DNA from: Globodera rostochiensis | Taxonomy: Eukaryota; Nematoda; Chromadorea; Rhabditida; Heteroderidae | Reading direction: 5' to 3' | DNA: 64,000 nt | Assembly (NCBI GenBank): GCA_018350325.1 | Contig: JAEVLN010000009.1 | Span: 2,129,388 to 2,193,387 of the forward strand | Shown here: positions 8,501 through 55,448 of the stretch, in pieces | Position numbering within the stretch: the first letter of the stretch is position 1 | Layout: each line of letters opens with the position of its first letter | Program-made: the position numbers and the translations under genes | The notes under the pieces: generated by a model | Databases searched by the model: none | Told to the model about the DNA's origin: nothing | Seen by the model: only the letters and a program-made list of their open reading frames with translations

Positions 8501-9755
8501 GAATTTATTGGAAATTTTTCAGGGTGAATTGGTGCGCTTGGTGCTCGAGGATTTGACCCGCCGTGGGCTGTTGCTGAGCGGGGACACCGAGCGAATTTCG
8601 GAGCCAGGCTGTTTCCCGACCAAATTGGTGTCCGACATTGAAAGGTAATTATAGAATTGTTTCCAAATTTTAACAATTTTTATCATTTTTAAATTTTTTT
8701 TAGTCAAATGGGCAATGACGACAACGAAAATCCATTTGGCCGAATTGAGGAGATGTTGCAAGAAATTGGTCAGTCAGCAGCGGTTGTGTCTAGAGCCCGG
8801 ACTTGAGCTTCGAGCGAGATCTCGAGTCAAGATTTTTCGAGATCTCGAGACGAGATTCTCGTCTCGACCGGGCTCTAGTTGTGTCAATAATTAAAAAAGT
8901 GTCGAAAACAAAAAATTGCAGGCATTTGGAACTCGACGCCGTCCGACTGTGCCAACATTGCGTACGTGTGCTCGTTGGTCAGCACGCGCGCCGCGCACTT
9001 TTGCGCATGCGGAATTGCCGCGTTGCTGAAGCGCATGCAGCGTCCGTTCGTCACCGTCGGCGTTGACGGCTCCGTCTACCGCTTCCATCCGACATTCAAG
9101 GACTTGTTGGACGCCAAAATTGACGACCTGGTGGATGGAAAGCACGAGGTAAATGAAAAAACGGAGCGACTCGTTTTTCCTTTAAAAAATACATTTATAA
9201 TGGGAACGAGTCGATATAAATGGAGGGGGGGGGGAACGAGTCGATATAAATGGAGGAGGGGGGGGGAACGAGTCGATATAAATGGAGGGGGGGAGGACGA
9301 ATCGATATAAATGGAGGGGGGGGGGGGAACGAGTCGATATAAATGGAGGGGGGGGGGGGAACGAGTCGATACAAATTGAGGGAACGAGTCGATATAAATG
9401 GAGAGGGCGGGGAACGAGTCGGTGGGGGAAGGGGTGGAGGATGGGAACGAGTGTTAATATTTTTTCGAGTTAAATGTGTGTGTTCAGTGAGTACCAGAAC
9501 TTGGCCAACGGCACACGGGAAATTTTAATAAAAATTTTTGCGATTTTTTTTTGTTGAAAAAATAATGTGTGTTGTGTGTTTTTGTAGTTCATCCTGGTGC
9601 TCAGCGAGGACGGCAGTGGACGTGGCGCTGCGGTGGCTGCAGCGGTCGCGTCCCGGATGAATCAGATCACGCACGAGCATCGTGAAGTGCGACGACTCAC
9701 ATCCATGGAAGCAGCAGCTGTGCCCATTCCTATCACCGCTGACAAAAAGCCTTAG
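5565..9755 (+). CDS. Hexokinase, 11 exons, 526 aa
   Basis: It phosphorylates glucose with ATP at the start of glycolysis. Exons are 5565-5702, 6052-6154, 6654-6856, 7123-7278, 7459-7627, 7739-7807, 7885-8045, 8523-8644, 8704-8768, 8922-9148 and 9588-9755. All phases close, giving 527 codons including TAG. Hallmarks in order are [19 protein letters not shown] (phosphate-1, residues 106-116), [23 protein letters not shown] (catalytic Asp233), [42 protein letters not shown] (adenosine side) and [12 protein letters not shown] at the C-terminus. The length fits a single-unit 50-kDa enzyme with a 50-80 residue Ser-rich N-terminal extension. Introns carry transposons (5735-5908, 8791-8877), tandem repeats (intron 2) and a minisatellite (intron 10). 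Exons 5-10 are duplicated as a pseudogene at 43.2-45.5 kb. The first exon is the least certain. Confidence 0.95.
5735..5908. mobile_element. hAT-type MITE (TAGAGCCCGG family) in hexokinase intron 1
   Basis: The ends are TAGAGCCCGGA and TCCGGGCTCTA. They are flanked by identical 8-bp direct repeats GTTTTGAT at 5727-5734 and 5909-5916. The interior is made of degenerate 'tctggatctg' iterations. An 8-bp duplication with short inverted ends is the hAT pattern; no transposase is present. Confidence 0.9.
6200..6640 (+). repeat. About 110-bp tandem repeat in hexokinase intron 2
   Basis: Four imperfect copies of a unit containing 'ttggaaaatttgtctcaaaa', 'atgttgggaatttttt' and 'aacatggaattttgttctta' fill most of intron 2. 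Copies differ by small indels and substitutions. Confidence 0.85.
8791..8877. mobile_element. hAT-type MITE (TAGAGCCCGG family) in hexokinase intron 9
   Basis: The ends are TAGAGCCCGG and CCGGGCTCTA, flanked by identical 8-bp repeats GTTGTGTC at 8783-8790 and 8878-8885. The interior is a palindromic 'gagatctcgag' series. The same insertion, rearranged at one end, sits in the hexokinase pseudogene at about 44051-44150, so the duplication happened after this insertion. Confidence 0.92.
9198..9450 (+). repeat. Minisatellite in hexokinase intron 10
   Basis: About eight copies of a roughly 25-33 bp unit, 'gggaacgagtcgatataaat' followed by 'ggagg' and a variable G-run. Copy length varies mainly through the G-run. 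Related sequence persists in the pseudogene at about 43732-43772. Confidence 0.92.
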
Positions 9756-24909: not shown

Positions 24910-25362
24910 CTCTACCCCCGGTACGCATCCACGCGCCGGACACTTCAGTGCACACACTTAGTGCCGGACACTTCAGTGCCAGCAATTGAAAGGCTATAAC
25001 TTTTTAAATCAAACAATCAAGAAGTCATTGGAAAGCTCTAAGCTTTTAAAAGTCATTGTTAAGCCAAAGCTAACCAATTAGAAAATTCGTAAAAAAAGTA
25101 TTGCAATAAAACTGATGAGAAACCCTGATTTGGGGTGTTTTCACGTTGAACTTCTTAAAAACGAATTGAACCGGCTTGGCTTTTTTTTTTGTACGATACT
25201 TCTCATTTACAGCTTTCCAATGACATCTTGATTGTTTGATTTGGTTGAGTTTAAAAAACAGTTATAGACTTTTAAGGCTGGCACTGAAGTGTCCGGCACT
25301 GAAGTGTGGGACACCTGCTGAAGTGCGCGGCACCGAAGTGTAGGCACTGAAGTGATCGCCGC
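24910..25362. mobile_element. Foldback element whose arms are short iterated repeats (candidate satellite source)
   Basis: The left arm (24932-24982) contains two copies of 'ccggacacttcagtgc' plus a variant. The right arm (25276-25360) contains, inverted, about five 14-19 bp units such as 'ggcactgaagtgtcc' and 'ggcactgaagtgtgg'. The AT-rich interior includes 'ttgaaccggcttgg' and 'aacttcttaaaaacg'. The arm unit is nearly the monomer of the array that starts at 25805, and interior-like sequence abuts that array. Confidence 0.85.
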
Positions 25363-25804
25363 CGCTCTACCTCCCCCCCCCCCCCCCCCTCCCCAAATAA
25401 CCTTAGAAACATCTTTTTTTCGACTCAATAATTAATGACTGAAACCCGTTTTCCATGCCGCCACAAAAAATGTCTCTGCTGATCAAGGCCATCGTTGAAT
25501 TAAAGGCTGCACCGTGAAATGCTTCTTGCAAGGCCATGCACTCGGCAAATGTAATGTGGGCCTGCGCAATAAACGATGTACAAAAACTCCTTGTAGCCGC
25601 TTTCCAAGCTTCAAAGCCTAGCACAACGCCCTGTAAAAGTTGCAATTATAAATAAGTAGGGGTCGAATTATAAGTTTTTTGCATATTTTGTTGTTTTCTC
25701 ATATGCTTCGAAGAATACGGCCCAAAAATAGATCATTTAAAAAATACCCAAGCGGTTTAATTGGTTTAAAAAAGTTTAACGTGAAAAACACGCAAAATCG
25801 AGGG

Positions 25805-28800
25805 TGCGGCACTGAACCATTCGGCCATGAACCGTGCTGCACTGACCGTGCGGCACTGAACCGTACGGCATTTAACCGCCCGGCACTGAACCGCCCGCAC
25901 TGAACCGTGCGGCACTGAACCGCCCGGCACTGAACCTTGCGGCACTGAACCGTACGGCATTTAACCGCCCGGCACTGAGCCGCCCGCACTGAACCGTGCG
26001 GCACTGAACCGCCCGGCACTGAACCGCCCGCACTGAACCGTGCGGCACTGAACCGTCCGGCACTGAACCGTCAGGCACTGAACCGCCAGGCACTAATCCG
26101 TGCGGCACTAAACGTCCGGCACTGAACAGTGCGGCACTGAACGTCCGGCACTGAACCGTGCGGTACAGTACCGTCCGGCACTGCCCGTGCGGCACTGAAC
26201 CGTGCGGCACTGAACCGTCCGGCACTGAACCGTCAGGCACTGAACCGTACGACAATTAACCGCCCGGCACTGAACCGCCCGCACTGAACCGCCAGGCACT
26301 GATCCGTGCGGCACTAAACGTCCGGCACTGAACAGTGCGGCACTGAACGTCCGGCACTGAACCGTGCGGTACAGTACCGTCCGGCACTGCCCGTGCGGCA
26401 CTGAACCGTGCGGCACTGAACCGTCCGGCACTGAACCGTCAGGCACTGAACCGTCAGGCACTGAACCGTACGACAATTAACCGCCCGGCACTGAACCGCC
26501 CGCACTGAACCGTCCGGCACTGAACCTTGCGGCAGTGAACCGTCCGGCACTGAACCGTCCGGCACTGAACCGTGCGGCACTGAACCGTACGGCACTGAAC
26601 CGCCCGCACTGAACCTCCCGCACTGAACCTTGCGGCAGTGAACCGTCCGGCACTGAATCGCCCGCACTGAACCGTCCGGCACTGAACCTTGCGGCAGTGA
26701 ACCGTCCGGCACTGAACCGCCCGCACTGAACCGTGCGGCACTGAACCGTCCGGCACTGAACCGACAGGCACTGAACCGTCAGGCACTGAACCGCCAGGCA
26801 CTGATCCGTGCGGCACTAAACGTCCGGCACTGAACAGTGCGGCACTGAACGTCCGGCACTGAACCGTGCGGCACTGAACCGTCCGGCACTGCCCGTGCGG
26901 CACTGAACCGTGCGGCACTGAACCGTCCGGCACTGAACCGTCCGGCACTGAACCGTCCGGCAGTGAACCGTCCGGCACTGAACCGTCCGGCACTGAACCG
27001 TGCGGCACTGAACCGTACGGCACTTAACCGCCCGGCACTGAACCGCCCGCACTGAACCGTTCGATACTGCCCGTGCGGCAGTGCGGCACTGAATCGCCCG
27101 CACTGAACCGTCCGGCAGTGAACCGTCCGGCACTGAACCGTCCGGCACTGAACCGTGCGGCAGTGAACCGCCAGGCACTGATCCGTGCGGCACTAAACGT
27201 CCGGCACTGAACAGTGCGGCACTGAACGTCCGGCACTGAACCGTCCGGCACTGAACCGTCCGGCACTGAACAGTGCGGCACTGAACGTCCGGCACTGAAC
27301 CGTGCGGCACTGAACCGTACGGCACTTAACCGCCCGGCAGTGAACCGCCCGCACTGAACCGTTCGATACTGCCCGTGCGGCAGTGCGGCACTGAACCGTC
27401 ACGCACTGAACCGCCAGGCACTGATCCGTGCGGCACTAAACGTCCGGCACTGAACAGTGCGGCACTGAACGTCCGGCACTGAACCGTGCGGCACTGAACC
27501 GTCCGGTACTGGACCGTCAGGCACTTAACCGCCCGGCACTGAACCGCCCGCACTGAACCGCCCGCACTGAACCGTGCGGCACTGAACCGTCCGGTACTGG
27601 ACCGTCAAGCACTGAACCGTCAGGCACTGAACCGCAGGCACTGATCCGTGCGGCACTAAACGTCCGGCACTGAACAGTGCGGCACTGAACGTCCGGCACT
27701 GAACCGTGCGGTACAGTACCGTCCGGCACTGCCCGTGCGGCACTGAACCGTGCGGCACTGAACCGTCCGGCACTGAACCGTCAGGCACTGAACCGTACGA
27801 CAATTAACCGCCCGGCACTGAATCGCCCGCACTGAACCGTCCGGCAGTGAACCGTCCGGCACTGAACCGTCCGGCACTGAACCGTGCGGCAGTGAACCGC
27901 CGTTTCCGCCGGACAACCCCGCAAACCCCGGCACTGAACCAGGCACTGAAACCCCGGCACTGAACCCAAATGACCGTGGAGCCGCGGCACTGAACCGGCA
28001 ACCCCGCAGACGGCCGGCCAAAAGTCGGAAGGCCGCCCAACCCCACGAACCCCCCGAACCCGAAGCCCGAACCGAGCTCGGCACTGAACCGCCGGACGAA
28101 CCCGGCACTGAACCGCCGCACTGAACCGTGCGGCACTGAACCGTCCGGCACTGAACCGTCAGGCACTGAACCGTCGCACTGAACCGCCAGGACGACCGCC
28201 GCACCGTCGGCACTGAACCGTCGGCACTGAACCGTCGGCACTGAACCGTCGGCACTGAACCGCCAGGCACTGACCGTCGGCACTGAACCGTCCGCACTGA
28301 ACCGCAGGAACTGCCGGCACTGAACCGTGCGGCACTGAACCGTCCGGCACTGACCGCAGGCACTGAACCGTCACGCACTGACCGCCAGGCACTGATCCGT
28401 CCGGCACTAAACTGCGGCACAAAGTGCGGCACTGAAGCCGGCCACTGAACCCGGCTAACCGTCCGGCACCCTGCGGCAAACGCGGCACTGAACCGTCCGG
28501 CACTGAACCGCAGGCACTGAACCCGGCACGAACCGCCGCACTGAACCGCCGGCACTGAACCGTCCGGCACTGAACCGTCCGGCACTGAACGTGCGGCACT
28601 GAACCGCCGGCACTGAACCGTCCGGCACTGAACCGTGCGGCATGAACCTGCGGCACTAACCGTCCGGCACTGAACCGTCCGGCACTGAACGTCGCACTGA
28701 ACCGTCGGCACTGAACCTACAGGCACTGACCGTCACGCACTGAACCGTCCGGCACTGAACCGGCGGACTGAACCGTCCGGCACTGAACGCCGGCACTGAA

Positions 28801-31800
28801 CCGTGCGGCACTGACCGTCCGGCACGAACCGCCACACTGAACCGTCCGGCACTGAACCGGCGCAGTGACGTACCGGCACTGGCCACTGAACGTCCGGCAC
28901 TGAACCTTGCGGCACTGAACCGTCCGGCACTGACCCGCCCGCATGAACCGTGCGGCACTGAACCGTCCGGCACTGAACCCCGCACTGAACCGTCCGGACT
29001 GACCGCGCGGCCTGAACGTCCGGCACTGACACCGCCGGCACTGAAACCGTGCGGCACGAACTCGCACTGAACCGCCCGCACTGAACCGTCCGGCACTGAC
29101 CCGTGCGGCACTGAACCGTCGCACTGACCGTCGGCACTGAACCGTCCGGCACTGAACCGTGCGTGCACGTGAACCGTCCGCACTGAACCGTCCGCACTGA
29201 ACCGTCCGGCACTGAACCGTACTGACCGCGGCTTGAACTGCGGCACTGAACGCGGCAAACCGGCGGACGTCGCACTGCCGTGACACCCCCGTGAACCCCG
29301 CGACGACGCCGACGAACGGCGGAACTTGAACGTCCGACTGAACCGTGCGGACGACCTCCGGCACTGACCGTCGGCACGAGCGGCCGGCACTGAACCGTCG
29401 GCACAAGTCCGGCACGACCGTCGCACTGAACGCCCGGCACTGAACCGCCGGCACTGAACCGCCGGCACGAACCGCGGCACTGAACCGCGGCACTGAACCC
29501 GCACTAACGCCGGCACGAACCGTGCGGCACTGACCGTCGACTGACGGCCGACTGAACCGGCGGACGCCGCGACGCCGCGACGCCGGCCTGACGCGGCACG
29601 ACCGCAGACCGTGGCACTACGTCGCACTGACGTCCGCACTGACCGCGCTGACCCCGGCACTTGAACCGTCGCACTGAACCGTCGGCACTAACCGCGAACG
29701 TCGGCCTGAACCCGGCCTAACGTCGCACTGAACGCGGCCTGACCTCGGCCTGAACCGCCACTGACCGTCAGCACCACTACCGTGGCACAACGTCCGGCAA
29801 CCGGCAAATGGCACTGACCGCACTGAACCCGGCAGAACCGCGCACTGACCTCGGCACGAACCGTCGGCACTGAACCGTCCGGCACTGACCGTCAGGCACT
29901 GAACCGTACGCATAACCGCCGGCACTGAACCGCGGCACTAACCGTCCGCACTGAACTGCGCATGAACCGTCCGGCACTGAACCGTCCGCACTGAACCGCC
30001 GGCACTACCGTGCGGCACTAACCGTCCGGCACTGAACCGTCGGCACTGAACGTCGGCACTAACCGCCGGCACTGAACGCGGCCTGAACCGTCCGGCACTG
30101 AACCGTCGGACGAACCGCCGGCACCGTCGGCACTGAACCGTGCGGCACTGAACCGTCCGGCACTGAACCGTCAGGCACTGAACGTCGGCACTAACCGGGA
30201 CTGACGCGGCACTGAACGCGGCACAATCGCACTGAACGTCCGCACTGAACCGTGCGACGACACCGCGCACTGAACCGCGGCACTAACCCTCCGGCACTGA
30301 ACGTGCGGCACTGAACGTCCGGCACGAACCGCGGACACCCGCACCGCCGGCACTGAACCGCGGCACTGACCGTCGGCACTAACGTCCGGCACTGAACCGT
30401 CGGCACTGAACCGTCCGGCCTGAACCGTCCGGCACTGAACCGTCCGGCACTGAACCGTGCGGCACTGAACCGTCGGCCAACCGCGGCCTGAACCGCCGGC
30501 GAACCGTACGGCCGAGCGCCGGCACTGAACCGGCACGACCGCCGGCACTGAACCGTCCGGACTGAACCGTCAGACGACTGTACCGGCGAACCGCCGCACT
30601 GAACCGTGCGGCACTAACGTCCGGCACTGAACCGCGGCACTGAACCGTCCGGCACGAACCCTGCGGCATGACCGTCCGGCACTGAAGTGCGGCATGAACC
30701 GTCGGAACCGCCGGACTGAACCCGCACTGAACGCAGCACTGAACCGTCGGCACTAACGTGCCTAAAGTGCGGACCGTCCGACTACGCGGCCTGAAGCCCG
30801 CGGCACTGAACCGTCCGGCACTGAACCGTCCAGCACTGAACCGTGCGGATAACCGTCCGGCACTGAACCGTCCGGCACTGCCCGTGCGGCACAGAACCGT
30901 GCGGCACTGAACCGTCCGGCACTGAACCGTCAGGCACTGAACCGTCCGGCACTGAACAGTGCGGAACTGAACGTCCGGCACTGAACCGTGCGGCACTGAA
31001 CCGTCCGGCACTGAACCGTCAGGCACTGAACCGTCAGGCACTGAACCGCAAGCACTGATCCGTGCGGCACTAAAACGTCCGGCACTGAACAGTGCGGCAC
31101 TGAACGTCCGGCACTGAACCGTGCGGTACAGTACCGTCCGGCACTGCCCGTGCGGCACTGAACCGTCCGGCACTTGAACCGCCGGCCTGAACCTCGGCAC
31201 TGAACCGCCACTGAACCGCCCGCACTGAACCGCCCGCATGAACCGGCGGCACTGAACCGTCCGGCACTGAACCGCGGCACTGAACCGCGCGAACCGCCAG
31301 GCACGATCCGTGCGGCACTGAAACGCCGGCACTGAACCGGCGACACTGAACGTCCGCACTGAACGTGCGACTGAACCGTCGGACTGACCGCCTGAACGAT
31401 CCGCCGGCACTGAACCGCGGCATGAACCGCGGCACTGAACCGTCCGGCACTGAACCGTGCGGCACTGACCGTCCGGCACTGACCGTCGGCACTGAACCGT
31501 CCGGCAACCCCGGCACGAACTGGACTGAACCGTCCGGCACGAACCGTCCGGCACTGAACCGTCCGGCACTGAACCGTGCGGCACTGAACCGCCGGCACTA
31601 ACCGTGCGGCACTGAACCCCGGCACTGAACCGTGGCACTGAACGCGTGCGGCCTGAACGTCAGGCACTGAACCGCCAGGCACTGATCCGTGCGGCACTAA
31701 ACCCTCCGGCACTGAACGTGCGGCACTGAACCGTCCGGCACTGAACCGTGCGGCACTGAACCGTCCGGCACTGAACGTCCGGCACTGAACCGTCCGGCAC

Positions 31801-34800
31801 TGAACCGTCGAGAACCGCCCGGCACTGAACCCCCGACTGAACCGTCGGCATACGCCGGGCCCGGCACTGAACCGTCCGGCACTGAACCGCGGCATGAACC
31901 GTCGGCACTGAACCCGGCACTGAACCGTCCGGCAAACTGACGTAACCGGACCCCGGCACTGAACCGTCCGGCACTGAACCGCCGGCACTGAACCGTCCGG
32001 CACTGAACCTGCGCTGAACCGTCCGGCACTGAACCGCCGGCCTGAACCGTGCGCACTGAACCGTCCGCACTAACCGCAGGCACTGAACCGTCCGGCACTG
32101 AACCGTGCGGCACTGAACCGTCCGGCACTGACCGTCGGCACTGAACCGTCAGGCACTGAACCGCCGGCACTGAACCGTGCGGCACTAAAGCCGGCACTGA
32201 ACAGTGCGGCACTGAACCGTCCGGACTGAACCGGCGGACGCGCCGAACGCCGGCATCACCGTGCGGCACTGAACCGTCGGCACTGAACCGTCCGGCACTG
32301 AACCGGGACAACCGGCCTGAACCGTCGCACGAACCGTACGACAATAACCGCCCGGCACTGAACCGGGCACTGAACCGTCCGGCACTGAACCGTCCGGCAC
32401 TGAACCGTCGGCACTGAACCGTCGCTTAACCGCCGGCACTGAACCGCCCGCACTGAACCGTCCGGCACTGAACGTGCGGCACTGACGTCCGGCACTGAAC
32501 CGTCGGACAGACCGTCCGGCACTGACCGCGGCACGAACCGTGCGCACTAACCGTCCGGCACTGAACGTCAGGCACTGAACGTCCGGCATGAACCGCGGCA
32601 CTAACCGTCAGGCACTGAACCGTCCGGCACTGAACCTCGGCAGTGAACCGTCCGGCACTGACCGTCCGCACTGAACCGTCCGGCACTGAACCTCGGCACT
32701 AACCCCGGCACTGAACCGCCGCACTGAACCGTCGGCACTAAACGTCCGGCACTGAACCGACAGCCGTGCGGCACTAAACTCCGGCACTGAACCGTGCGGA
32801 CTGAACGTCCGGCACTGCCGTGCGGCACTGAACCGTGCGCACTGAACCGTCCGGCACTGAACCGTCGGCACTGAACCGTCGGCACTGAACCGTCGCATTA
32901 ACGTCCGGCACTGAACAGTCGCACTGAACGTCCGGCACTGAACCGTGCGGCACTGACCGTCACGGCACTAACCGCCGGCACTGAACCGCCGCACTGACCG
33001 TTCGTAAACTCGCACAACGTGCGGACGAACGTCGGCACTGAACCGTCAAGCACTGAACCGCCAGGCACTGAACCGCGGCACTAACCGTCCGGCACTGAAC
33101 CGTGCGGCACTGAACCGTCGGCACTGAACCGTGGGCACGACCGCCCGGCACTGACCGTCCGGCACTGAACCGTGCGGCACTGAACCGCCGGCCTGAACCG
33201 TGCGGCACTGAACCGTGCGGCACTGAACGCGGCACTGAACCGTCCGGCACTACGTCGCACTGAACCGTCGGCACTGACCGCGGCACTGAACGTCGGCACT
33301 ACGTCCGGCATGAACCGTGCGGCACGAACCGTCCGGCACTGAACCGTCCGGCACTGAACCGTCCGGCACGAACGACGCCTGCCGTGGCACTGAACCGTCC
33401 GCACTGAACCGTCGGCACTGAACAGTCGCACTGAACGTCCGGCACTGAACGTGCGCACTGACCGTCGGCACTGAACCGTCGGCACTGACGGCCGGCACTG
33501 AACCGTGCGGCACTAACGTCCGGCACTGAACGTGCGGCACTGAACCTCCGGCACTGAACCGTGCGGCACTGAACCGTCCGGCACTGAACCGTCAGGCACT
33601 GAACCTCAAGCACTGAACCGCCAGGCACTTATACCGGCGGCACTAAACGTCCGGCACTGAACAGGCGGCACTGAACGTCCGGCACTGACCGTGCGGCCGT
33701 GAACCGTCCCGGCACTGAACCCGGCCACTGAACCGTCCGGCACTGAACCGTCCGGCACTGAACCGTGCACTGAAGTCCAGCATGAACCGTGCGGCACTGA
33801 ACCGTCCGGCACTGAACCGTCGGCACTGAACCGTCCGCACTACCGGCACTGAACCGTCGGCACTGAACCGTCCGGCACTGAACCGGGCAGGCACTGACCG
33901 CCGGCACTAACCGTCCGGCACTGAACCGTCCGGCACTGAACCGCCGGCACTGAACCGTGGCACTGAACGCCGGCACTGACCGTGCGGCACTGAACCGTCG
34001 GCACTGAACCGTGCGCACGAACCGTCCGGCACTGAACCGTCCGGCCACTGAACCGTCCGGCACTGAACCGCCGGCCTAACCGTCCGGCACTGAACCGTCG
34101 GCACTGAACCGCCGGCACTGAACCGTGCGGCACTGACCGTACGGCACTGAACCCTCCGGCACTGAACCGTCGGCACTGAACGTCCGGCACTGAAACGCGG
34201 CACTGAACTCCGGCACTGAACCGTGCGGCACTACCGTCCGGACTGCCGTCGGCATGAACCTGCGGCACTGAACCGTCCGGCACTGAACCGTCGGCACTGA
34301 ACCGTGCGGCACTAACCGCGACATCCCCGCATGAACCGTCCGGCATGAACCGTCCGGCACTGAACCGTCCGGACTGACCCGGACTGAACCGTCCGGCACT
34401 GAACCGTCGGCATGAACCGCGGCACTGAACCTCCGGCACTGAACCTCCGGCACTGAACCCCGGCACTGAACCGTGCGGCACGAACCGCTGACCGCGCACT
34501 GAACCGTCCGGCACTGAACCGTCCGGCACGAACCGTCCGGCACTGACCGCGGCACTGAACCGTCCGGCACTGAACCGTCGGCACTGAACCGTGGCACTGA
34601 ACCGTCCGCACTGAACCGTCGGCACTGAACCGTCCGGCCTGAACCGCCAGAACCGCAGCACTTAACCCCATCAGGCACTGAACCGTCGCACTGAACAGGC
34701 GGCACTGAACCGTGCGGCACTGAACCTCCGGCACTGAACCGCGCACTGACCGTGCGGCACTGAACGTGCTGCACGTGACCGTCCGCATGACCGTCCGCAC

Positions 34801-37800
34801 TGAACCGTCCGGCACTGAACCGTGCGGCACTGAACCCCCGGCACTGAACCGTCACGCACTGAAACCGTCCGGCACTGAACCGTGCGGCACTGAACCGTCC
34901 GGCACGAACCGTCCGACTAGAACCGTCGGCACTGAACCGTGCGGCACTGAACCGTCCGGCACTGACCGTCGCCATGAACCGCCGGCACTGAACCGTGCGC
35001 ACTGACGTCGGCACTGAACCGTCGCACTGAACCGTCCGGCACTGAACGTGCGGCACTGAACCGTCCGGCACTGAACCGTCAGACTGAACCGTAGGCACTG
35101 AACCTCCAGGCACTGAACCGTGCGGCACTGAACGTCCGGCATGAACAGTGCGGCACTGAACGTCCGGCACTGAACCGTGGGACAGTACCGTCCGGCACTG
35201 CCGTGCGGCCTGACCGTGAACGTGCGGCACTGAACCGTGCGGCACTGAACCGTCCGGCAGAACCGTCGGCACTGAACCGCGCGGCATCTAAACGTCCGGC
35301 ACTGAACGTCCGCACTGACGTGCGGCACTGACCGTCCGGCACTGAACCGCTGCGGCACGAACCGTCCCGGCACTGAACGTCAGGCACTGAACCGTCGCAC
35401 GCACTGAACCGTCGGCACTGAACCGTCCGGCACTGACCGTCGGCACTGAACCGTCGGCACTGAACCGCCCGCACTGAACCGCGGCAAACCGTCCGCACTG
35501 AACCGTGCGGCATGAACCGTCGGCACTGAACCGTCCGGCACTGAACCGTGCGGCCTAACCGTCCGGCACTGAACCGTGCGGCACTGAACCGTCCGGCACT
35601 GAACCGGTGGGTAAGTACCGTCCGGCACTGCCCGTGCCTAACGTCGGCACTGAACCGTGCGGCACTGAACCGCCGGCACTGAACCGTGCAGGCACTGAAC
35701 CGAGACGGCACCGCGGGCACTGAACCGCCCGACTGAACCGTCGGCACTGAACCGTGCGGCACTGAACCGTCCGGCACTGAACCGCCCGGCCTGAACCGTC
35801 GCGGCATGAACCGTCCGGCACTGAACCGCCGGCACGATGATCCGTCGGCCTAAACGTCCGGCACTGAACAGTGCGGCACTGAACGTCCGGCACTGAACCG
35901 TGCAGCACGAACCGTCCGGCACTGAATCCGTGCGGTACAGTAACCGTCGGCACTGAACCGTACGGCATGAACCGTCAGGCAACTGAACCGTACTGACATT
36001 AAACCTGCCCGGCACTGAATCGGCCCGCACTGAACGTCCGCATTGAACCGTCCGGCACTAACCGTCCGGCACTGAACCGTGCGGCTTGAACGCCAGGCAC
36101 TGAACCGTCAGGCACTGAACCGTCCGCACTGAACCGTGCGGCAAGACGTCCGGCACTGAACCGCAGGCACTGAACCGTCATGCACCTGACCGCCAGGCAC
36201 TGACCGTGGCCGGCACTAAACGTCCGGCACTGAACAGTGCGGGCACTGAACGTCCGGCACTGACAGTGGTCAGCACTGAACCGTCAGGCACTGAAGCGTC
36301 CGGCACTGAACCGTCCGGCTATGAACCGTCAGCACGACAACTGAACCGTCCGGCCACTGAACCGTGCGGCACTGAAAACATACGGCACTTAACCGCCCGG
36401 CACTGAAGCAGGCCCGCACTGAACCGTGCAGCACTGAACTCGGCCTGAACCGGGGGGTGCTGTACAGTAACCGTGCGGGCCTGAACCGCCAGGCACTGAT
36501 CCGTGCGGCACTAAACGTCCGGCACTGAACAGTGCGGCACTGAACGTCCGGCACTGAACCGTGCAGCACTGAACCGTCCGGCACTGAACCGTGCGGTACA
36601 GTACCGTCCGGCACTGCCCGTGCGGCACTGAACCGTGCGGCACTGAACCGTCCGGCACTGAACCGTCAGGCACTGAACCGTCCGGCACTGAACCGTGCGG
36701 CACTGAACCGTCCGGCACTGAACCGTACGACAATTAACCGCCCGGCACTGAACCGCCCGCACTGAACCGTCCGGCACTGAACCTTGCGGCAGTGAACCGT
36801 CCGGCACTGCCCGTGCGGCATAGAACCGTGCGGCACTGAACCGTCCGGTACTGGACCGTCAAGCACTGAACCGTCAGGCACTGAACCGCCAGGCACTGAT
36901 CCGTGCGGCACTAAACGTCCGGCACTGAACAGTGCGGCACTGAACGTCCGGCACTGAACCGTGCGGTACAGTACCGTCCGGCACTGCCCGTGCGGCACTG
37001 AACCGTGCGGCACTGAACCGTCCGGCACTGAACCGTCAGGCACTGAACCGTACGACAATTAACCGCCCGGCACTGAATCGCCCGCACTGAACCGTCCGGC
37101 AGTGAACCGTCCGGCACTGAACCGTCCGGCACTGAACCGTGCGGCACTGAACCGTCCGGCACTGAACCGACAGGCACTGAACCGTCAGGCACTGAACCGC
37201 CAGGCACTGATCCGTGCGGCACTAAACGTCCGGCACTGAACAGTGCGGCACTGAACGTCCGGCACTGAACCGTGCAGCACTGAACCGTCCGGCACTGAAC
37301 CGTGCGGTACAGTACCGTCCGGCACTGCCCGTGCGGCACTGAACCGTGCGGCACTGAACCGTCCGGCACTGAACCGTCCGGCACTGAACCGTGCGGCACT
37401 GAAGCGTACGGCACTTAACCGCCAGGCACTGAACCGCCCGCACTGAACCGTCCGGCACTGAACAGTGCGGCACTGAACGTCCGGCACTGAACCGTGCGGT
37501 ACAGTACCGTCCGGCACTGCCCGTGCGGCACTGAACCGTGCGGCACTGAACCGTCCGGCACTGAACCGTCCGGCACTGAACAGTGCGGAACTGAACGTCC
37601 GGCACTGAACCGTGCGGCACTGAACCGTCCGGCACTGAACCGTCAGGCACTGAACCGTCAGGCACTGAACCGCAAGCACTGATCCGTGCGGCACTAAAAC
37701 GTCCGGCACTGAACCGTGCGGCACAGTACCGTCCGGCACTGCCCGTGCGGCACTGAACCGTCCGGCACTGAACCGTCAGGCACTGAACCGTCACGCACTG

Positions 37801-40800
37801 AACCGCCAGGCACTGATCCGTGCGGCACTAAAAGTCCGGCACTGAACAGTGCGACACTGAACCTCCCGCACTGAACCTTGCGGCAGTGAACCGTCCGCAC
37901 TGAATCGCCCGCACTGAACCGTCCGGCACTGAACCGTACGGCACTGAACCGCCAGGCACTGATCCGTGCGGCACTGAACCGTGCGGCACTGAACCGTCCG
38001 GCACTGAACCGTCAGGCACTGAACCGTCACGCACTGAACCGCCAGGCACTGATCCGTGCGGCACTAAACGTCCGGCACTGAACAGTGCGACACTGAACGT
38101 CCGGCACTGAACCGTGCGGTACAGTACCGTCCGGCACTGCCCGTGCGGCACTGAACCGTGCGGCACTGAACCGTCCGGCACTGAACCGTCAGGCACTGAA
38201 CCGTCAGGCACTGAACCGTACGACAATTAACCGCCCGGCACTGAACCGTGCGGCACTGAACCGTCCGGCACTGAACCTTGCGGCAGTGAACCGTCCGGCA
38301 CTGAACCGTCCGGCACTGAACCGTGCGGCACTGAACCGTACGGCACTGAACCGCCCGCACTGAACCTCCCGCACTGAACCTTGCGGCAGTGAACCGTCCG
38401 GCACTGAATCGCCCGCACTGAACCGTCCGGCACTGAACCTTGCGGCAGTGAACCGTCCGGCACTGAACCGCCCGCACTGAACCGTCAGGCACTGAACCGT
38501 ACGACAATTAACCGCCCGGCACTGAACCGCCCGCACTGAACCGTCCGGCACTGAACCTTGCGGTGAACCGTCCGGCACTGAACCGTCCGGCACTGAACCG
38601 TGCGGCACTGAACCGTACGGCACTGAACCGCCAGGCACTGATCCGTGCGGCACTGAACCGTGCGGCACTGAACCGTCCGGCACTGAACCGTCAGGCACTG
38701 AACCGTCACGCACTGAACCGCCAGGCACTGATCCGTGCGGCACTAAACGTCCGGCACTGAACAGTGCGACACTGAACGTCCGGCACTGAACCGTGCGGTA
38801 CAGTACCGTCCGGCACTGCCCGTGCGGCACTGAACCGTGCGGCACTGAACCGTCCGGCACTGAACCGTCAGGCACTGAACCGTCAGGCACTGAACCGTAC
38901 GACAATTTACCGCCCGGCACTGAACCGTGCGGCACTGAACCGTGCGGCACTGAACCGTCAGGCACTGAACCGTCAGGCACTGAACCGTACGACAATTAAC
39001 CGCCCGGCACTGAACCGCCCGCACTGAACCGTCCGGCACTGAACAGTGCGGCACTGAACGTCCGGCACTGAACCGTGCGGTACAGTACCGTCCGGCACTG
39101 CCCGTGCGGCACAGAACCGTGCGGCACTGAACCGTCCGGCACTGAACCGTCAGGCACTGAACCGTACGACAATTAACCGCCCGGCACTGAACCGCCCGCA
39201 CTGAACCGTCCGGCACTGAACCTTGCGGCAGTGAACCGTCCGGCACTGAATCGCCCGCACTGAACCGTCCGGCACTGAACCTTGCGGCAGTGAACCGTCC
39301 GGCACTGAACCGCCCGCACTGAACCGTGCGGCACTAAACGTCCGGCACTGAACAGTGCGGCACTGAACGTCCGGCACTGAACCGTGCGGTACAGTACCGT
39401 CCGGCACTGCCCGTGCGGCACTGAACCGTGCGGCACTGAACCGTGCGGCACTGAACCGTCCGGCACTGAACCGTCAGGCACTGAACCGTACGACAATTAA
39501 CCGCCCGGCACTGAATCGCCCGCACTGAACCGTCCGGCACTGAACCGTGCGGCACTGAACCGTACGGCACTTAACCGCCCGGCACTGAACCGCCCGCACT
39601 GAACCGTTCGATACTGCCCGTGCGGCAGTGCGGCACTGAACCGTCAAGCACTGAACCGCCAGGCACTGATCCGTGCGGCACTAAACGTCCGGCACTGAAC
39701 AGTGCGGCACTGAACGCCCGGCACTGAACCGTGCGGTACAGTACCGTCCGGCACTGCCCGTGCGGCACTGAACCGTGCGGCACTGAACCGTCCGGCACTG
39801 AACCGTCCGGCACTGAACCGTGCGGCACTGAAGCGTACGGCACTTAACCGCCAGGCACTGAACCGCCCGCACTGAACCGTCCGGCACTGAACAGTGCGGC
39901 ACTGAACGTCCGGCACTGAACCGTGCGGTACAGTACCGTCCGGCACTGCCCGTGCGGCACTGAACCGTGCGGCACTGAACCGTCCGGCACTGAACCGTCC
40001 GGCACTGAACAGTGCGGAACTGAACGTCCGGCACTGAACCGTGCGGCACTGAACCGTCCGGCACTGAACCGTCAGGCACTGAACCGTCAGGCACTGAACC
40101 GCAAGCACTGATCCGTGCGGCACTAAAACGTCCGGCACTGAAACCGTGCGGACAGACCGTCCGGCACTGCCGTGCCGCACTGAACCGTCGGACTGAACCG
40201 TCAGGCACTGAACGTCGGCACTAACCGCCCGGCACTGAACCGCCCGCACTAACCGTCCGGCACTGAACCGTGCGGTGAACCGTGCGGCACTGAACCGTCC
40301 GGCACTGAACGTCGGCACTGAACCGTCCGCACTGAACCGCCGGCACTGAACCGTGCGGCCAAACGTCCGCACTGAACGTCCGCACTGAACGTCCGGCACT
40401 GAACCGTGCGGACAGGATCCGTCCGGCACTGACCGCCCGCACTGAACCGTGCGGCACTGAACCGTGCGGCACTGAACCGTCCGGTACTGGACCGTCAGGC
40501 ACTGAACCGCCAGGCACTGATCCGTGCGGCACTAAACGTCCGGCACTGAACAGTGCGGCACTGAACAGTGCGGCACTGAACGTCCGGCACTGAACCGTGC
40601 GGTACAGTACCGTCCGGCACTGCCCGTGCGGCACTGAACCGTGCGGCACTGAACCGTCCGGCACTGAACCGTCAGGCACTGAACCGTCAGGCACTGAACC
40701 GCCAGGCACTGATCCGTGCGGCACTAAACGTCCGGCACTGAACAGTGCGGCACTGAACGTCCGGCACTGAACCGTGCGGTACAGTACCGTCCGGCACTGC

Positions 40801-41133
40801 CCGTGCGGCACAGAACCGTGCGGCACTGAACCGTCCGGCACTGAACCGTCAGGCACTGAACCGTACGACAATTAACCGCCCGGCACTGAACCGCCCGCAC
40901 TGAACCGTGCGGTACAGTACCGTCCGGCACTGCCCGTGCGGCACAGAACCGTGCGGCACTGAACCGTCCGGCACTGAACCGTCAGGCACTGAACCGTACG
41001 ACAATTAACCGCCCGGCACTGAACCGCCCGCACTGAACCGTCCGGCACTGAACCTTGCGGCAGTGAACCGTCCGGCACTGAATCGCCCGCACTGAACCGT
41101 CCGGCACTGAACCGTCCGGCACTGAACCGTCAG
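25805..41133. repeat. Satellite array, 15-bp GC-rich monomer, about 15.3 kb
   Basis: The monomer is GGCACTGAACCGTCC, about a thousand copies. Common variants are GGCACTGAACCGTGC, a 14-bp form with 'cgcccgcactgaac', 'cttgcggcagtgaac' and 'cgtacgacaattaac'. A landmark block 'gtgcggtacagtaccgtccg' recurs at irregular 130-700 bp spacing, showing higher-order duplication. A block with 'cagtgcggaactgaac' recurs near 30956, 37578 and 40008. The ends (25.8-27.9 and 36.5-41.1 kb) are regular; the middle is eroded by single-base losses. Because 15 is divisible by 3, the array is open in several frames and yields spurious proteins with 5-residue periods. Confidence 0.97.
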
Positions 41134-41990
41134 GCTCCTTCCTAGCAATAACTTTTTAGACTCAAAAAAAAAAGTTCGATCAATTGTTCGAACGGTTTAA
41201 GTGTTCGGCATCCGCTAAAACGGAGCTCGGATTCGCGTTCTTCACACGAGTTCTGAACGATTTTTTGAGGGTATTGTCAATTTTATTGAGGTGAACGAAT
41301 GGGGTAAAAGGGAACGAATAGAATGCTACGAATTGGCGGGGAACGAATCGTGTGACTTCCATTTTTGCTTTAAAAGAATTATTCAACTGTTCAAAAAAAA
41401 CTTACAAATTCGTAAAATATACTAGTGACATTGCAAGTGCCAACGTCGGCTCTGCTCCAGTCACTTCTTTCCAAGTCAGGCTTTTTCCTAAAAAGTTTTT
41501 GTTGAAATAAATGCACAATAGATATCTGTCCTTTTTCCAGCTTAATGTTTTAACGGACGTTCTCTTTCGACAACTAATGAAATTTTCAGGGAAATTTAAG
41601 AATTTCTAAAATGTCAGTATTTCAAAAGCCTATAACTTTAAACTCTAACGAATAAGATGAAATTAGAAAGTAATTGAGAAGAATCATTCAAAAAAAGCCA
41701 AGCGGTTCAATTCATTTTTTAAAAAGTTCAATGTTCAAAAGTACCCAAAATTGAGGGTATAGTTTTGTCGAAATAACTTTTTCACGAATTCTCTAATTGT
41801 TTTAATTTTTTAATAGCCCATAAAATGCTCTACAAAACCCAAAACCGGCTAAACTCTTTTTGGGCAGTGTACTAGCTTTAAAGTTGGTACCAAACCGCTT
41901 AATTGATTGACTATAAAAAGATTTCATAATAACACTAATAAAATTAGATAACTATTTATAACCAAATTCGCATGTAAAAGCATTACTTAC
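41134..41990. other. Intron sequence right of the array
   Basis: At about 41625-41760 there is sequence homologous to the interior of the foldback at 24910-25362 ('aagccaagcggttcaattca', 'aaaattgagggt'). No exon is seen until the family exon at 41991. Confidence 0.55.
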
Positions 41991-46081: not shown

Positions 46082-47016
46082 AGACCCCGGCACTTGTTAT
46101 TATTTGTGACTATGAAATTAACATATTGTAGTATAATTTATGGGTTCGTATTTTATCTTCCACTAACATCGAGTCACGTATTATAACATCCAATCACGTA
46201 TTATAACATTCAATCACGTATTATAACATTCAATCACATATTACAACATCCAATCACACGCTCCCCACATATTTTACCATCCATTCTGTTCCGAAGGAAA
46301 GGAAAATAGTGTGGGAGTTTGACGAAAAAGAAAAGAAATAGCGTGCTTGTCAGACGCTCACACACTCTAACTATTTCGTCACTTCCTCGCACTCTATCTC
46401 TAACTATTTCTTCATTCCTCGCACGCTATTTTGTTCGTGATTCAGGTCATGTATTACCACACGCTGTGTTAGATGAAATGGGAAATAGCGTGTGTGAGAC
46501 ACGTCTAAACGATACACTATTTCATTTTCCTCGCACTCTCTTTTTCTTCAGGACATCTAGGCCCGTACAAATCCTGCTGGACGCGTGCGTGCGCGTACAA
46601 ATCCTGCTGGACGCGTGCGTGCGCGTACAAATCCTGCTCCACTAACATGAATCACGAACAAAAACAGTTAGAGATAGAGTGCGAGGAAGTGAAGAAATAG
46701 TTAGAGTGTGTGAGCGTCTGACAAGCACGCTATTTCTTTTCTTTTTCCTCAAACTCCCACACTATTTTCCTTTCCTTCGGAACAGAATGGATGGTAAAAT
46801 ATGTGGGGAGCGTGTGATTGAATGTTGTAATATGTGATTGAATGTTATAATACGTGATTGGATGTTATAATACGTGATTGGATGTTATAATACGTGATTG
46901 GTTGTGGTATGTATTCAAAAAGTGTTATGGCGTGTTAACGCGTATATTCAAATGTTAAGATATGGAAGGACCGTGTTATTTCCATAGTCACAAAGAATCA
47001 CAAGTGCCGGGGTCCA
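46082..47016. mobile_element. Foldback element with 9-bp target duplication
   Basis: The arms begin 'gaccccggcacttg' and end 'caagtgccggggtc'. The inverted arms include 'cacgtattataacatccaat' iterations and 'gtgtgggagtttgacgaaaa' and are about 300 bp or longer. Direct repeats ATTGCGGTT flank it at 46073-46081 and 47017-47025. A 9-bp duplication with long arms is the Mutator-like pattern. The centre has three copies of 'gcgtacaaatcctgctggac'. No transposase is present. Confidence 0.9.
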
Positions 47017-47453: not shown

Positions 47454-50400
47454 TCATCCGTTATTTTTACAATGAAAATCAAATTCGCAATGATGTTCTG
47501 CAGTCTCCTCGCCTAAGTTCATGTTTATTAGTGCATTGAAAAGGGATGTGCTCCTGTCTACATGCTCCTTGCACCAATGCTGCTGCTCTTGCTGCTCCAA
47601 TCTTGCGCAGTAGATCTCGAAGGTGTTAAAAAGAAGAGCAAAATGTTGTGCAATCTAAAAATTGTAACTATCGGCGTATTATTAAATATTTGGATTATTA
47701 AAATAATCCTAGCTGGGGTGGGTCTTTCGATTTCGATAATTTCGGGGTTTTTCTTTTATTTCGATTTGGAAAATCGAATTCTTCGAAAAAAATTTTGTAT
47801 CAAATGTTATAGATGATCCTAGTATTAGGTATTTTAAAACATTCATATAAGCGGCGAGCTAGTTTATTTGAAAAATGTCTTTTTAAATTCAAATATCGAA
47901 TTTACTTAGGTTTCTTTATTGTTTCTATATTTTTCTTTTGAAAAAAGAGGATTTAAATTTTACTAGTATTCGAATTTTACTAAATACAATTTTGTGAAGG
48001 AAGGTATACAAATAATACTAACTCCTCGTATTTTTGAATATTTTCATTAATACTAGGATATAGAAGAATCCTAATTAGTGTTTGGCGATGGAGTTTTTAG
48101 GTATTTGTTTTTGATAAAATACCGATACCAAAAATACTGAAATCCCAAATTTCATTGGATTCTAGGACCCAAATTCTAATTTAAGCACATTTTCTAATTT
48201 AAAGATGTATTAGTTTCTCAGGGGTCGGATTCGTCCTTATTTTAAAGGACAGTCCTTGAAAATGCCCTCAATCTTATAATTAAAAAAGTCCTTATTTCAA
48301 GAATGACCTTTGAAAATTAGAATTTGCCGTGAGTATTCAAAATTTTGGAATTTTATGGAGAAATCATGCTTTGGCATTGTGTGGTTCAAAATTTTTAATA
48401 GAAAAGAATCATTTCTTAATCCCCCTTTCAAAACATTGGACCTCTGATAATTTTTACGTTAATTTTTGTAACAATTTTCTTAATAAACATTCTTAAAATC
48501 TTCAAAAAATTTTCCGGCGGCGCTTATCGGCACCGGCGGACTCTTCCCATTTCTTAAAAGCTTTAATATCGCAGTTTTAAAAATTTTGGTTGCAAATCTC
48601 TAGGGTTGTTCAGTACCGGTTACGAAAACCGGGTCTTCGAAATCCCGGTTAACCGAAAACCGGTTAGCCAAACCGCAACAAAAAAAAACCTTAGAAAAGA
48701 GTGTAAGAATGAATATTTTTTCTTACCTTATTCGCTTTATGGTATAGTTGTATGCAAAATGCGCAGGGTATTGGGCCTTTTTCTTGGAGTTGACTAAATT
48801 TATGGCATACAATAGAAGATAAGAAGCTATTTAACTTTCAGCAAATAATTACATTGTTAATCTGAGATAAAGTGACCTCTGATCTTGGACTGATCCGTGC
48901 GTGATCTTCTAATATCAGTAAGTTATTTTGAAAAGCGGCCAGATCAGTGAGCACTTTTTGTAGCTATTTGAGCCTATTTTTGGACAAAATATTTTTAAAT
49001 AATTTCAAATCAGAGGTTAAACCAATACTAGCCAAAAAATTTTAAAATCCAAATAAGTTAATAAACCCGTTTTTCATGTCGCAGAAACTATCATTTGGAC
49101 CAAGCTCCATTGTGGTGTTGAAGGCCCAATTGTGAAAAGCTTCAGCTAACACTTTGCACTCGGCGGAGGTTATTTGGGCTTGACTAGTCAACAACGCGCA
49201 AAAGGAATGGAAAGATGTCGTCCAAGTCGCAAAACTACCAGAGATGCTCTAATACGTTGTAATTTTATAAGTGGTTAGAAAGGAGATTAGAAAATAAGGC
49301 CCTATTTATTAAATTAAATTGCAATTTTTTGTAGCCATATTACACTAATCTTTCAAAATTTGATTAAATTTCAATGTTTTCTACAGGCATGGACACGGTT
49401 ATGAATTTCCTTAACCGTAACCGCCCGTCCTCAAACACTTAGAAACGTTAACCGTCCGTAACCGCCCGTCTTAAAAATCTCATAACCGTTAACCGCCCGT
49501 CCTCAAAATCTCATAACCGTTAACCGCCCGCGGTTATCCGCGGTTAACCGCATTATTTAAAAATCAATAAAGTTTTCCAGATTTTGAACAATCGATTTTT
49601 CAAAACTATTTTTTTCCGATCGTGATGTGGCGTCCTTCTAAAATTAAATCAAAATTGATGTGTATTGAACTTAACAAGTGATTTTTATCAGATTTTGTCA
49701 ATGAATAAAATTTTTAAATCTCTTTCTAACACTTTCATGATTAAAATCTAACAAAGCGCGACCGATCAGCGAAATTTTTTTCTGTGTTTTTTGCGCTTTA
49801 GATTTATAAAATATTTTTTGGGCGGTGTGGGGGTTCGGCGGTGCCGATAGGCGCCGCCGAGAGAAAAAATTGAATATTTACCGACTTATGCTAAGAAAAA
49901 TTGTCAAATTGAGGTGATTGAACGTTTTAAAATGCACTAATTATTTATGTAAACACTTAGAATTTTACTTTTTATAGCAAAAATTTTTGTAAAAAATTGT
50001 AAGAATACTAAAAAGAAGGGATATTAAAATATAAATAAAACGATTACAGCGGGTGGGGCTAGAACCTAGAACAAATAAAATCAGTCGGAGAGTTTCACCA
50101 CTAAGCCATCGGATCGATAAAGTAATTTGGTGAAATGTGAATAAAAGTCAAAGAAATTATAAGGCAAATCATCTCAATCCTCAACAGCCAAAAAATAACG
50201 GATACGACGGCTAACCGCGGTTTTAGAGGTCATAACCGTTAACCGACCGTAACCGCCCGCCCTCAAAATCTCATAACCGTTAACCGCCCGTAACCGCGAC
50301 CTTTTAAATTTCATAACCGTTAACCGCGGGTAACCGCGGTTAACCGCGGTTAACCGCGGTTACGGGTAACCGTGTCCATGCCTGGTTTTCTAGCCATATT

Positions 50401-54667: not shown

Positions 54668-55448
54668 GGTCCGAGTGTCGAATAAACCAAATACAGTCCG
54701 AGTGTCGAATAGAACTAAAAATGTCCGAGTGTCGAAAGTCCCAGTGTCGAAAAGTCTGAGTGTCGAATTGAACAAAAAATGTCCGAGTGTCGAACAGAAC
54801 AAAAAATGTCCTGGTGCCGAAAAACCAGGGAAGGTCCCAGTGACGATTTCTATAATGAATTAACGGGAAAACTGAATTTTTGATGGAATTTGTTAAGATT
54901 GGTCCACAAATTACGAATTTTAGCCCACCCAGTTGCATTTCTGACCAATTTCATAACAAAAAATGGGAATTTTACACTATATGGGAGTGGTTCGGATCCG
55001 AATAAAAATAATACCAAACACTAAATTTATTAGCTCCTCACCAACCTATTCATACCAGGATACCTCGCACTTTGTCGTGGTTTCCGATCTCAAACTGCAT
55101 TCGCTGTTGGCTCTATACCGGTTGTCAAAATAAATAGAAAAACAACAGTATGTATGTTAGAGATCTCGTTTCGAGGATCTCGAAAAATCTCGACTCGTCA
55201 AGTCCGGTCTCTAAAGTATGTACATAAATAAAAAGTATGAAAATTGATCCGATTTTGCTTTTTGCAGTGAAAAAATAGAATTCGACACTCGGTCGATATT
55301 TGTTCTATTCGACACTCGGATAGTATTTGCACTATTCGACACTCAGACTTTTCGACACTGGGACTTTCGACACTCGGATATTTTTAATTCTATTCGACAC
55401 TCGGACATTTTTTCCACTATTCGACACTCGGACCATTCGACACTCGGA
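54668..55448. mobile_element. Foldback element with arms of iterated GTCCGAGTGTCGAA units
   Basis: The left arm (54668-54845) has about eight copies of 'gtccgagtgtcgaa' spaced by 0-15 bp of 'tagaacaaaaa'. The right arm (55268-55448) has about nine copies of the inverse, 'ttcgacactcggac'. The central about 400 bp is unique and contains a nested MITE (55158-55213). It shows the same architecture as the foldback at 24910-25362 with an unrelated unit. Confidence 0.92.
55158..55213. mobile_element. Short TAGAGA-type MITE nested in the foldback
   Basis: Starts 'tagagatctcg' and ends 'ggtctcta', with 'gatctcgaaaaatctcgactcg' inside. Flanking octamers ATGTATGT and AAGTATGT differ at one base. A diverged TAGAGCCCGG-family member. 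Confidence 0.7.

Follow-up and report, generated by a model that had tools for sequence, protein, structure and literature searches.

A 15-bp satellite array of Globodera rostochiensis as the probable over-grown arm of a Tm1-like foldback transposon

Results

Organization of the array locus

We analyzed a 64,000-nucleotide stretch of the Globodera rostochiensis genome, referred to here as the window (C80:2129388-2193387), which contains a long satellite array of 15-bp units and, on its left, a foldback transposon with inverted arms of closely similar units. The genome contains two sister foldback lineages, in which the arm units end in either GTG or CCG. As described below, the array is very probably the over-grown right arm of a CCG-type foldback of the Tm1-like (Phantom/Mutator) kind, which would have grown by duplication of blocks of units before losing both ends and the greater part of the interior.

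The foldback next to the array (24919-25364, + strand) is a complete element of the GTG type that resembles a miniature inverted-repeat transposable element (MITE); no coding sequence was seen in it, and it groups with the GTG interiors. Its arms are built of GGCACTGAAGTG units, with two or three recognizable units in the left arm (24935-24980, - strand) and four or five in the right arm (25280-25354, + strand). The element is flanked by a 9-bp target-site duplication, CTCTACCCC at 24910-24918 and CTCTACCTC at 25365-25373 (both + strand), with one mismatch between the two copies.

Tandem Repeats Finder (TRF) placed the array at 25807-41135 (+ strand) with a period of 15, 1073 copies and 77% matches. 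The monomer, GGCACTGAACCGTCC, is a CCG-type arm unit in right-arm polarity, and all 213 matches to a monomer-pair pattern in the window were within the array and on the + strand. Exact counts within the array were 415 for GGCACTGAACCG and 1 for GGCACTGAAGTG. No clean higher-order repeat was seen inside the array, where the spacing of blocks varied. A preliminary description of this DNA, made from the sequence alone, had reported the foldback with inverted arms left of the array, the 15-bp array itself, and GTG/CCG as the sole difference between arm unit and array monomer. Our analysis confirmed each of these points, the last amounting to a difference of two bases.

On its left side the array adjoins a fragment of CCG-type foldback interior (25732-25806, + strand), which was up to 93% identical to 20 CCG interiors and at most 84% identical to 39 GTG interiors. 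A resemblance of this flank to the interior of the neighboring foldback had been noticed previously and proved to be real, as 25739-25805 aligned with the reverse complement of 25122-25188 (81% identity, E = 6e-9). About 150 bp of interior is missing between the fragment and the first array unit, a figure based on copy L041, whose matched part ends at 1575 and whose first unit is at 1729. The fragment starts where the first 80 bp of a dispersed repeat of another family end (25652-25731, + strand), and all seven copies of this repeat that we examined carry other sequence beyond the cut point.

To the right of the array are a piece of a different dispersed inverted-repeat family (41175-41348, + strand), found in both orientations at C5:2497472-2497882, and a relic of an older foldback-interior lineage (41612-41802, + strand). 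The latter aligned with the interior of the neighboring foldback (41624-41802 versus the reverse complement of 25072-25273; 71% identity, E = 2e-21), and the resemblance of the flanking sequence to foldback interior, left and right, exceeds chance. However, the relic and the left fragment correspond to one and the same portion of the interior and are 78% identical, so the relic is not a continuation of the fragment. Its identity to the CCG and GTG interiors averaged about 73.5% and did not exceed 78%; it does not share the CCG type of the left fragment and is not closely similar to the neighboring foldback. Among six relatives of the relic that were fetched, the best by a narrow margin was L076 (134 bits), a deep GTG-arm copy; four others (125-132 bits) had no such units and one (131 bits) had a single unit. 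Thus the right flank is interior-like, as had been proposed, but comes from a more diverged lineage, and it is not the other half of the copy represented on the left. A small search detected a 22-bp match of 41144-41165 to foldback interior (E = 6e-4). It might indicate a tandem dimer of the kind present at L120 but was too weak to be used. L120 itself (C45:3553400-3554400) is a tandem dimer of a GTG foldback with the order interior-arm-interior-arm, the middle arm being common to both.

Two sister lineages of a mobile foldback family

The genome searched consisted of 92.6 Mb in 80 contigs. With the Rfam SL1 model, at least 46 places matched (the best 50 of 33,072 candidates were scored), the top one at E = 5.0e-7 yet short of the cut-off set for this family, and 14 control genomes gave none; one example contains the 22-base SL1 leader of nematodes in reverse complement, in keeping with a nematode genome. 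A DNA search with the neighboring foldback as the query returned 405 candidate places, and the figures from this search rest on the best 40 of the 405. A CCG monomer-pair pattern gave 354 matches genome-wide and none in a reversed control; 345 of the 354 were in sequence that we examined and nine were outside it, while the corresponding coverage for the GTG pattern was 210 of 267. Arrays of strongly altered units, or with a 14-bp spacing, may escape such pattern searches. Among the matches listed, many of the CCG matches outside the array were inverted pairs about 384 bp apart, indicating that a sister foldback exists whose arms consist of the array monomer.

We defined as complete those copies in which both ends were recognizable with no more than two substitutions from the end motifs. 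This gave a set of 60, from which the window's own foldback is missing because its left end has diverged. Target-site duplications of 9 bp were perfect in 47 of the 60 copies, one further copy had one mismatch and another had two; several of the remaining 11 showed a shifted or 8-bp duplication by eye. When ends were deliberately mismatched, only 7 of 3540 pairs had one mismatch or none, compared with 48 of the 60 real pairs. This family has been mobile in the past. All but one of the copies (59 of 60) pair one GCGGCG-type end with one GTAC-type end, in a set chosen by motifs and not by pairing. The sole complete copy with ends of the same type, L114 (C20:730886-731315), has no 9-bp duplication and is possibly recombinant.

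For comparison of interiors we used 59 sequences: 54 of the 60 complete copies, the six longer than 900 bp being excluded, together with five extras (the window copy and four with one unrecognized end). Mean identity was 93% within the CCG type (n = 20), 95% within the GTG type (n = 39) and 84% between types, and the CCG and GTG interiors split under midpoint rooting. Repeated shuffling of arm types among interiors was considered and was not seen.

Full-length copies and the core of the arm unit

Two full-length CCG copies, L069 on C7 and L071 on C45, are 2.4 kb long, 99.8% identical and have nine units per arm. The exons of L069 encode MULE (PF10551, E = 4.9e-11) and N-terminal FLYWCH (PF04500, E = 5.7e-6) domains, both above the curated cut-off. 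These exons are also present in L071 and L107, and an additional copy on C80 contains a single stop in the MULE exon. A GTG full-length copy at C12 has the same plan, with exon pieces that are 70-90% identical at the protein level apart from one 36-residue piece at 50%; it lacks a counterpart to about 200 bp of CCG coding sequence. A protein search for relatives of the MULE exon yielded 37 candidates, with no match scored. Given the 9-bp target duplications and the MULE and FLYWCH domains of the full-length copies, both lineages are Mutator-like, Tm1-like (Phantom/Mutator) foldbacks. A second inverted repeat, made of CACTGCCCAAAGGATC units, was also observed inside the GTG full-length copy L105 (C12:5787387 on, at about 488-640).

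At the inner arm end of the full-length copies a 14-bp spacer is followed by one more unit. When the arms are read inwards, the outer linkers and the 14-bp inner spacer are common to the CCG and GTG lineages. Over nine units, the switch bases that distinguish the two unit types differ between the CCG and GTG full-length arms at 17 of 18 positions, compared with 1 of 90 at the remaining positions of the units and 4 of 38 in linkers of equal length. This comparison was devised after viewing the table and concerns one arm of one copy per lineage, with a five-unit subset chosen by eye; the two arms of L069 are 99.5% identical to each other, so they were counted once. The pattern suggests that the unit core is under selection or undergoes very short conversion, as would be expected for a binding site, presumably one for the transposase. 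A CCG sub-lineage represented by L054, L055, L058 and L059 has mixed units (CGG, CGT and CAG when read inwards), which at one switch base make it an intermediate in the direction of the GTG type.

Arms of intermediate length

The arms consist of 12-bp cores in tandem, with linkers between them that mostly measure 2-4 bp. Among the complete copies, 27 of the 54 short ones had 5/5 units and nine had 3/5, and five of the six longer ones had 9/9. We also identified considerably longer arms. In four cases with both arms visible the long arm was on one side only (L060, 1/13; L049, 10/3; L075, 4/31; L035, 3/50), and single arms of 13 and 47 units were found at L121 and L106, respectively. L075, which is complete and bears a perfect 9-bp duplication, has a 31-unit arm (32 by a second parser) that contains a repeated multi-unit block, and its interior is 98% identical to that of its closest relative, L109, which has 5/3 units. 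At L106, foldback interior (89% over 56 bp, E = 5e-15) is joined to the 47 units and, as in the window array, there is no transposon end on the right side. The 50-unit array of L035 adjoins an inner arm end of the full-length type.

All four arms or arrays of at least 30 units that we found adjoin foldback interior or inner arm and have right-arm polarity, the window array having such sequence on its left side only. Of the 354 monomer-pair matches, 132 were in examined loci other than the window array, and these correspond to foldback arms, single arm remnants and the 50-unit array. Among all 78 three-unit matches of the GTG type, large runs were present only at C1:807 kb and C56:4180 kb. Separately, pattern matches pointed to a run of about 10 GTG units at C28:534503-534651. 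Within the limits of the pattern searches, no large unit array lacking foldback sequence was found, and the genome-wide association of monomer arrays with the foldback that had been anticipated was indeed observed.

Origin of the array

A model that accounts for these results would begin with the arm of a CCG-type foldback, a short tandem run of typically five units in short copies or nine in coding copies. Such a run would be unstable, with blocks of a few units being duplicated through unequal exchange or slippage. The arms of 13, 31, 47 and 50 units would then form a growth series that leads to the several hundred to about 1,000 units of the window array. An over-grown copy would subsequently shed its ends and most of its interior, giving rise to a stand-alone satellite locus. 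The preliminary description had derived the satellite from a second copy of the neighboring foldback. That proposal holds insofar as the array is made of arm units and adjoins interior on the left, but a copy of the GTG neighbor is not supported as the source. The neighbor itself is likewise ruled out as the seed by its lineage, since it is of the GTG type while the array units and left flank are CCG. Eight pairs of foldbacks no more than 500 bp apart were present among the 60 complete copies, so a foldback beside the array is not unusual.

Several observations weigh against the over-grown arm. The junction is unclean, with about 150 bp of interior gone and the 75-bp fragment abutting another repeat on its left, and at the array's right edge we saw neither a transposon end nor a target duplication. 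An approximately 20-fold gap separates the largest intermediates (50 units) from the window array, which is a single case of such a size. Moreover, length change is not always one-sided, as one copy has 7/8 units. Finally, the TG linker of 2 bp, which is more frequent than any other in the short-copy arms of the CCG type, was absent among the linkers counted at the array edges, which were mainly TCC, TGC, TCA and CCC; either amplification was confined to part of an arm or the linkers have drifted.

The arm need not have belonged to a short copy, and we regard a full-length, transposase-coding CCG copy as an unlikely source. A TAC linker is present in both the array and the full-length arms, and the 50-unit array of L035 is of the full-length kind. 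However, the left flank of the window array is a short-copy interior, and the GGCTCTGAA variant of full-length arms had no exact match in the array.

The order of events could instead be reversed, such that an existing 15-bp satellite was captured into transposon arms and then spread. In the case of Xenopus miDNA4, a MITE is proposed to have captured a tandem repeat (PMC12628747), and the window array is far larger than any arm. Nevertheless, the 60 complete copies, short and long and of both lineages, hold their units at ordered positions, and a composite-arm plan is also found in Tm1 of Meloidogyne, the unit of which has 9 of 12 core bases in common with the unit described here (60 of 20000 shuffled units reached 9). 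Together with the lack of large foldback-free arrays in our pattern searches, these points make a satellite-first origin highly improbable.

We also considered an assembly artefact, in which noisy long reads inflated a short arm into all or most of the array. The array centre (27900-36000, + strand) is rich in deletions but has few substitutions: per 100 bases there are 13.4 deletions, as against 1.4 core substitutions and 0.6 insertions, whereas both edges have about 2.6, about 4.5 and 0.1-0.2, respectively; these counts depend on the alignment scoring chosen. Relative to the edges, deletions in the 8-kb centre are five times as frequent and core substitutions are reduced to a third, and its boundaries are an abrupt rise at 27,900 and a gentler fall near 36-36.8 kb. 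In contrast, the left edge (25807-27900, + strand) is well resolved, with 70-75% of units exactly 15 bp long, and the right edge (36500-41135, + strand) is better resolved than the centre and has variant units in common with the left edge. Variant units present at both edges are rare in the centre. Because decay would be expected to add substitutions as well, the centre is probably an unpolished long-read consensus. The length and unit number of the array are unreliable as a result, and the interpretable part is the edges, of about 2 kb and 4.6 kb. As these edges are much cleaner and have variant units in common, at least about 7 kb of array seems to be genuine, although the centre and the total length are doubtful, and it is very unlikely that all or most of the array was produced by assembly.

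The least credible explanation is that a second copy of the neighboring foldback spans the array with half of its interior on each side: interior-like sequence does lie on both sides in equal orientation and the top-scoring match of the right flank, L076, is a deep GTG-arm copy, but a single spanning element is ruled out by lineage (the neighbor is GTG, the units and left flank CCG) and by the position of the right flank, which repeats the interior portion of the left flank at no more than about 78% identity to either lineage and does not align best to CCG interior downstream of the left fragment, while foldbacks cluster anyway.

Other repeats in the window

Two further foldback-like structures were observed in the window. 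One is an inverted pair of 20-bp tandem repeats (46164-46257 and 46814-46905; TAACATCCAATCACGTATTA and its near reverse complement), which is a foldback candidate, and the other is an inverted tandem-repeat pair based on GTCCGAGTGTCGAA (54669-54811 and 55280-55448). Tandem repeats similar to TAACCGCCCG are scattered over several blocks at 49415-50362, and at 9202-9421 there is a tandem array whose 31-32 bp unit contains long runs of G.

Discussion

The difference between the two lineages at the switch bases raises the question of what the arm unit does. It is conceivable, although we consider it rather unlikely, that the unit is a transposase recognition site in which the two variable bases (CC/GT) act as a lineage code, and that the satellite is a sink that titrates the CCG transposase. 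If so, the units of both arms would have changed in parallel as the transposase diverged while the core and linkers were largely kept, and a satellite with hundreds of CCG-type sites could restrain the CCG lineage and not its GTG sister. Repeated binding sites for the Galileo transposase are cited in the report on Tetris (PMC4079207). The long-standing idea that arm repeats serve as extra binding sites becomes directly testable with two sister lineages, nearly all of whose units differ at the same two bases, taken together with their transposases.

Among the papers listed in our literature searches on foldback and Mutator-like elements, satellite DNA and nematodes, we found no earlier description of this array, judging by title and abstract opening. 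The foldbacks themselves closely resemble Tm1, a Mutator/Foldback family of Meloidogyne root-knot nematodes (Gross and Williamson 2011, PMC3169594). As described in that report, Tm1 also has composite arms with a variable number of 13-15 bp units, outermost motifs that are unlike at the two ends, duplications that are mostly 9 bp long, both MITE-like and transposase-coding classes, and the MULE and FLYWCH combination of Phantom elements. The unit CGGTTCAGTGCC matches the Tm1 unit CGATTCAGTATC at 9 of 12 positions. At the inner arm end Tm1 has a purine-rich spacer, motif D, and then one more unit; the 14-bp spacer of the full-length copies, cattataaatgcga, may be its counterpart but is not purine-rich. 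Tm1 is reported to have 1-9 units, whereas here the number reaches 50 in elements, in addition to the kilobase array. The term satellite is absent from the main text of the Tm1 paper.

With respect to the satellite, the closest parallel is Tetris and the TIR-220 satellite of Drosophila virilis (Dias et al. 2014, PMC4079207). In Tetris, as very probably here, tandem repeats of foldback arms expand to kilobase satellite arrays, the array monomer is the arm repeat in kind in both systems, the duplications of Tetris are 8-10 bp, and arrays often adjoin other parts of the element, as does the array described here. The two systems differ in repeat size (about 220 bp for Tetris versus 15 bp) and in that no transposase-coding copy was found for Tetris in that report, whereas full-length copies are present in G. 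rostochiensis. In addition, unit type tracks transposase lineage in the two lineages that we compared, unlike in Tetris as described. Growth of an array within an element followed by loss of its ends is also a feature of Xenopus miDNA4 (PMC12628747), although the repeat in that case is internal and not part of a terminal inverted arm. We conclude that the array is very probably a nematode case of the Tetris/TIR-220 phenomenon of Drosophila. The seeding of satellites by foldback arms was already known from Drosophila, without a transposase-coding copy there; a single nematode genome displays normal arms, arms of 13, 31, 47 and 50 units, transposase-coding copies and a kilobase array, with one of the intermediate arms residing within a complete element that has its target duplication.

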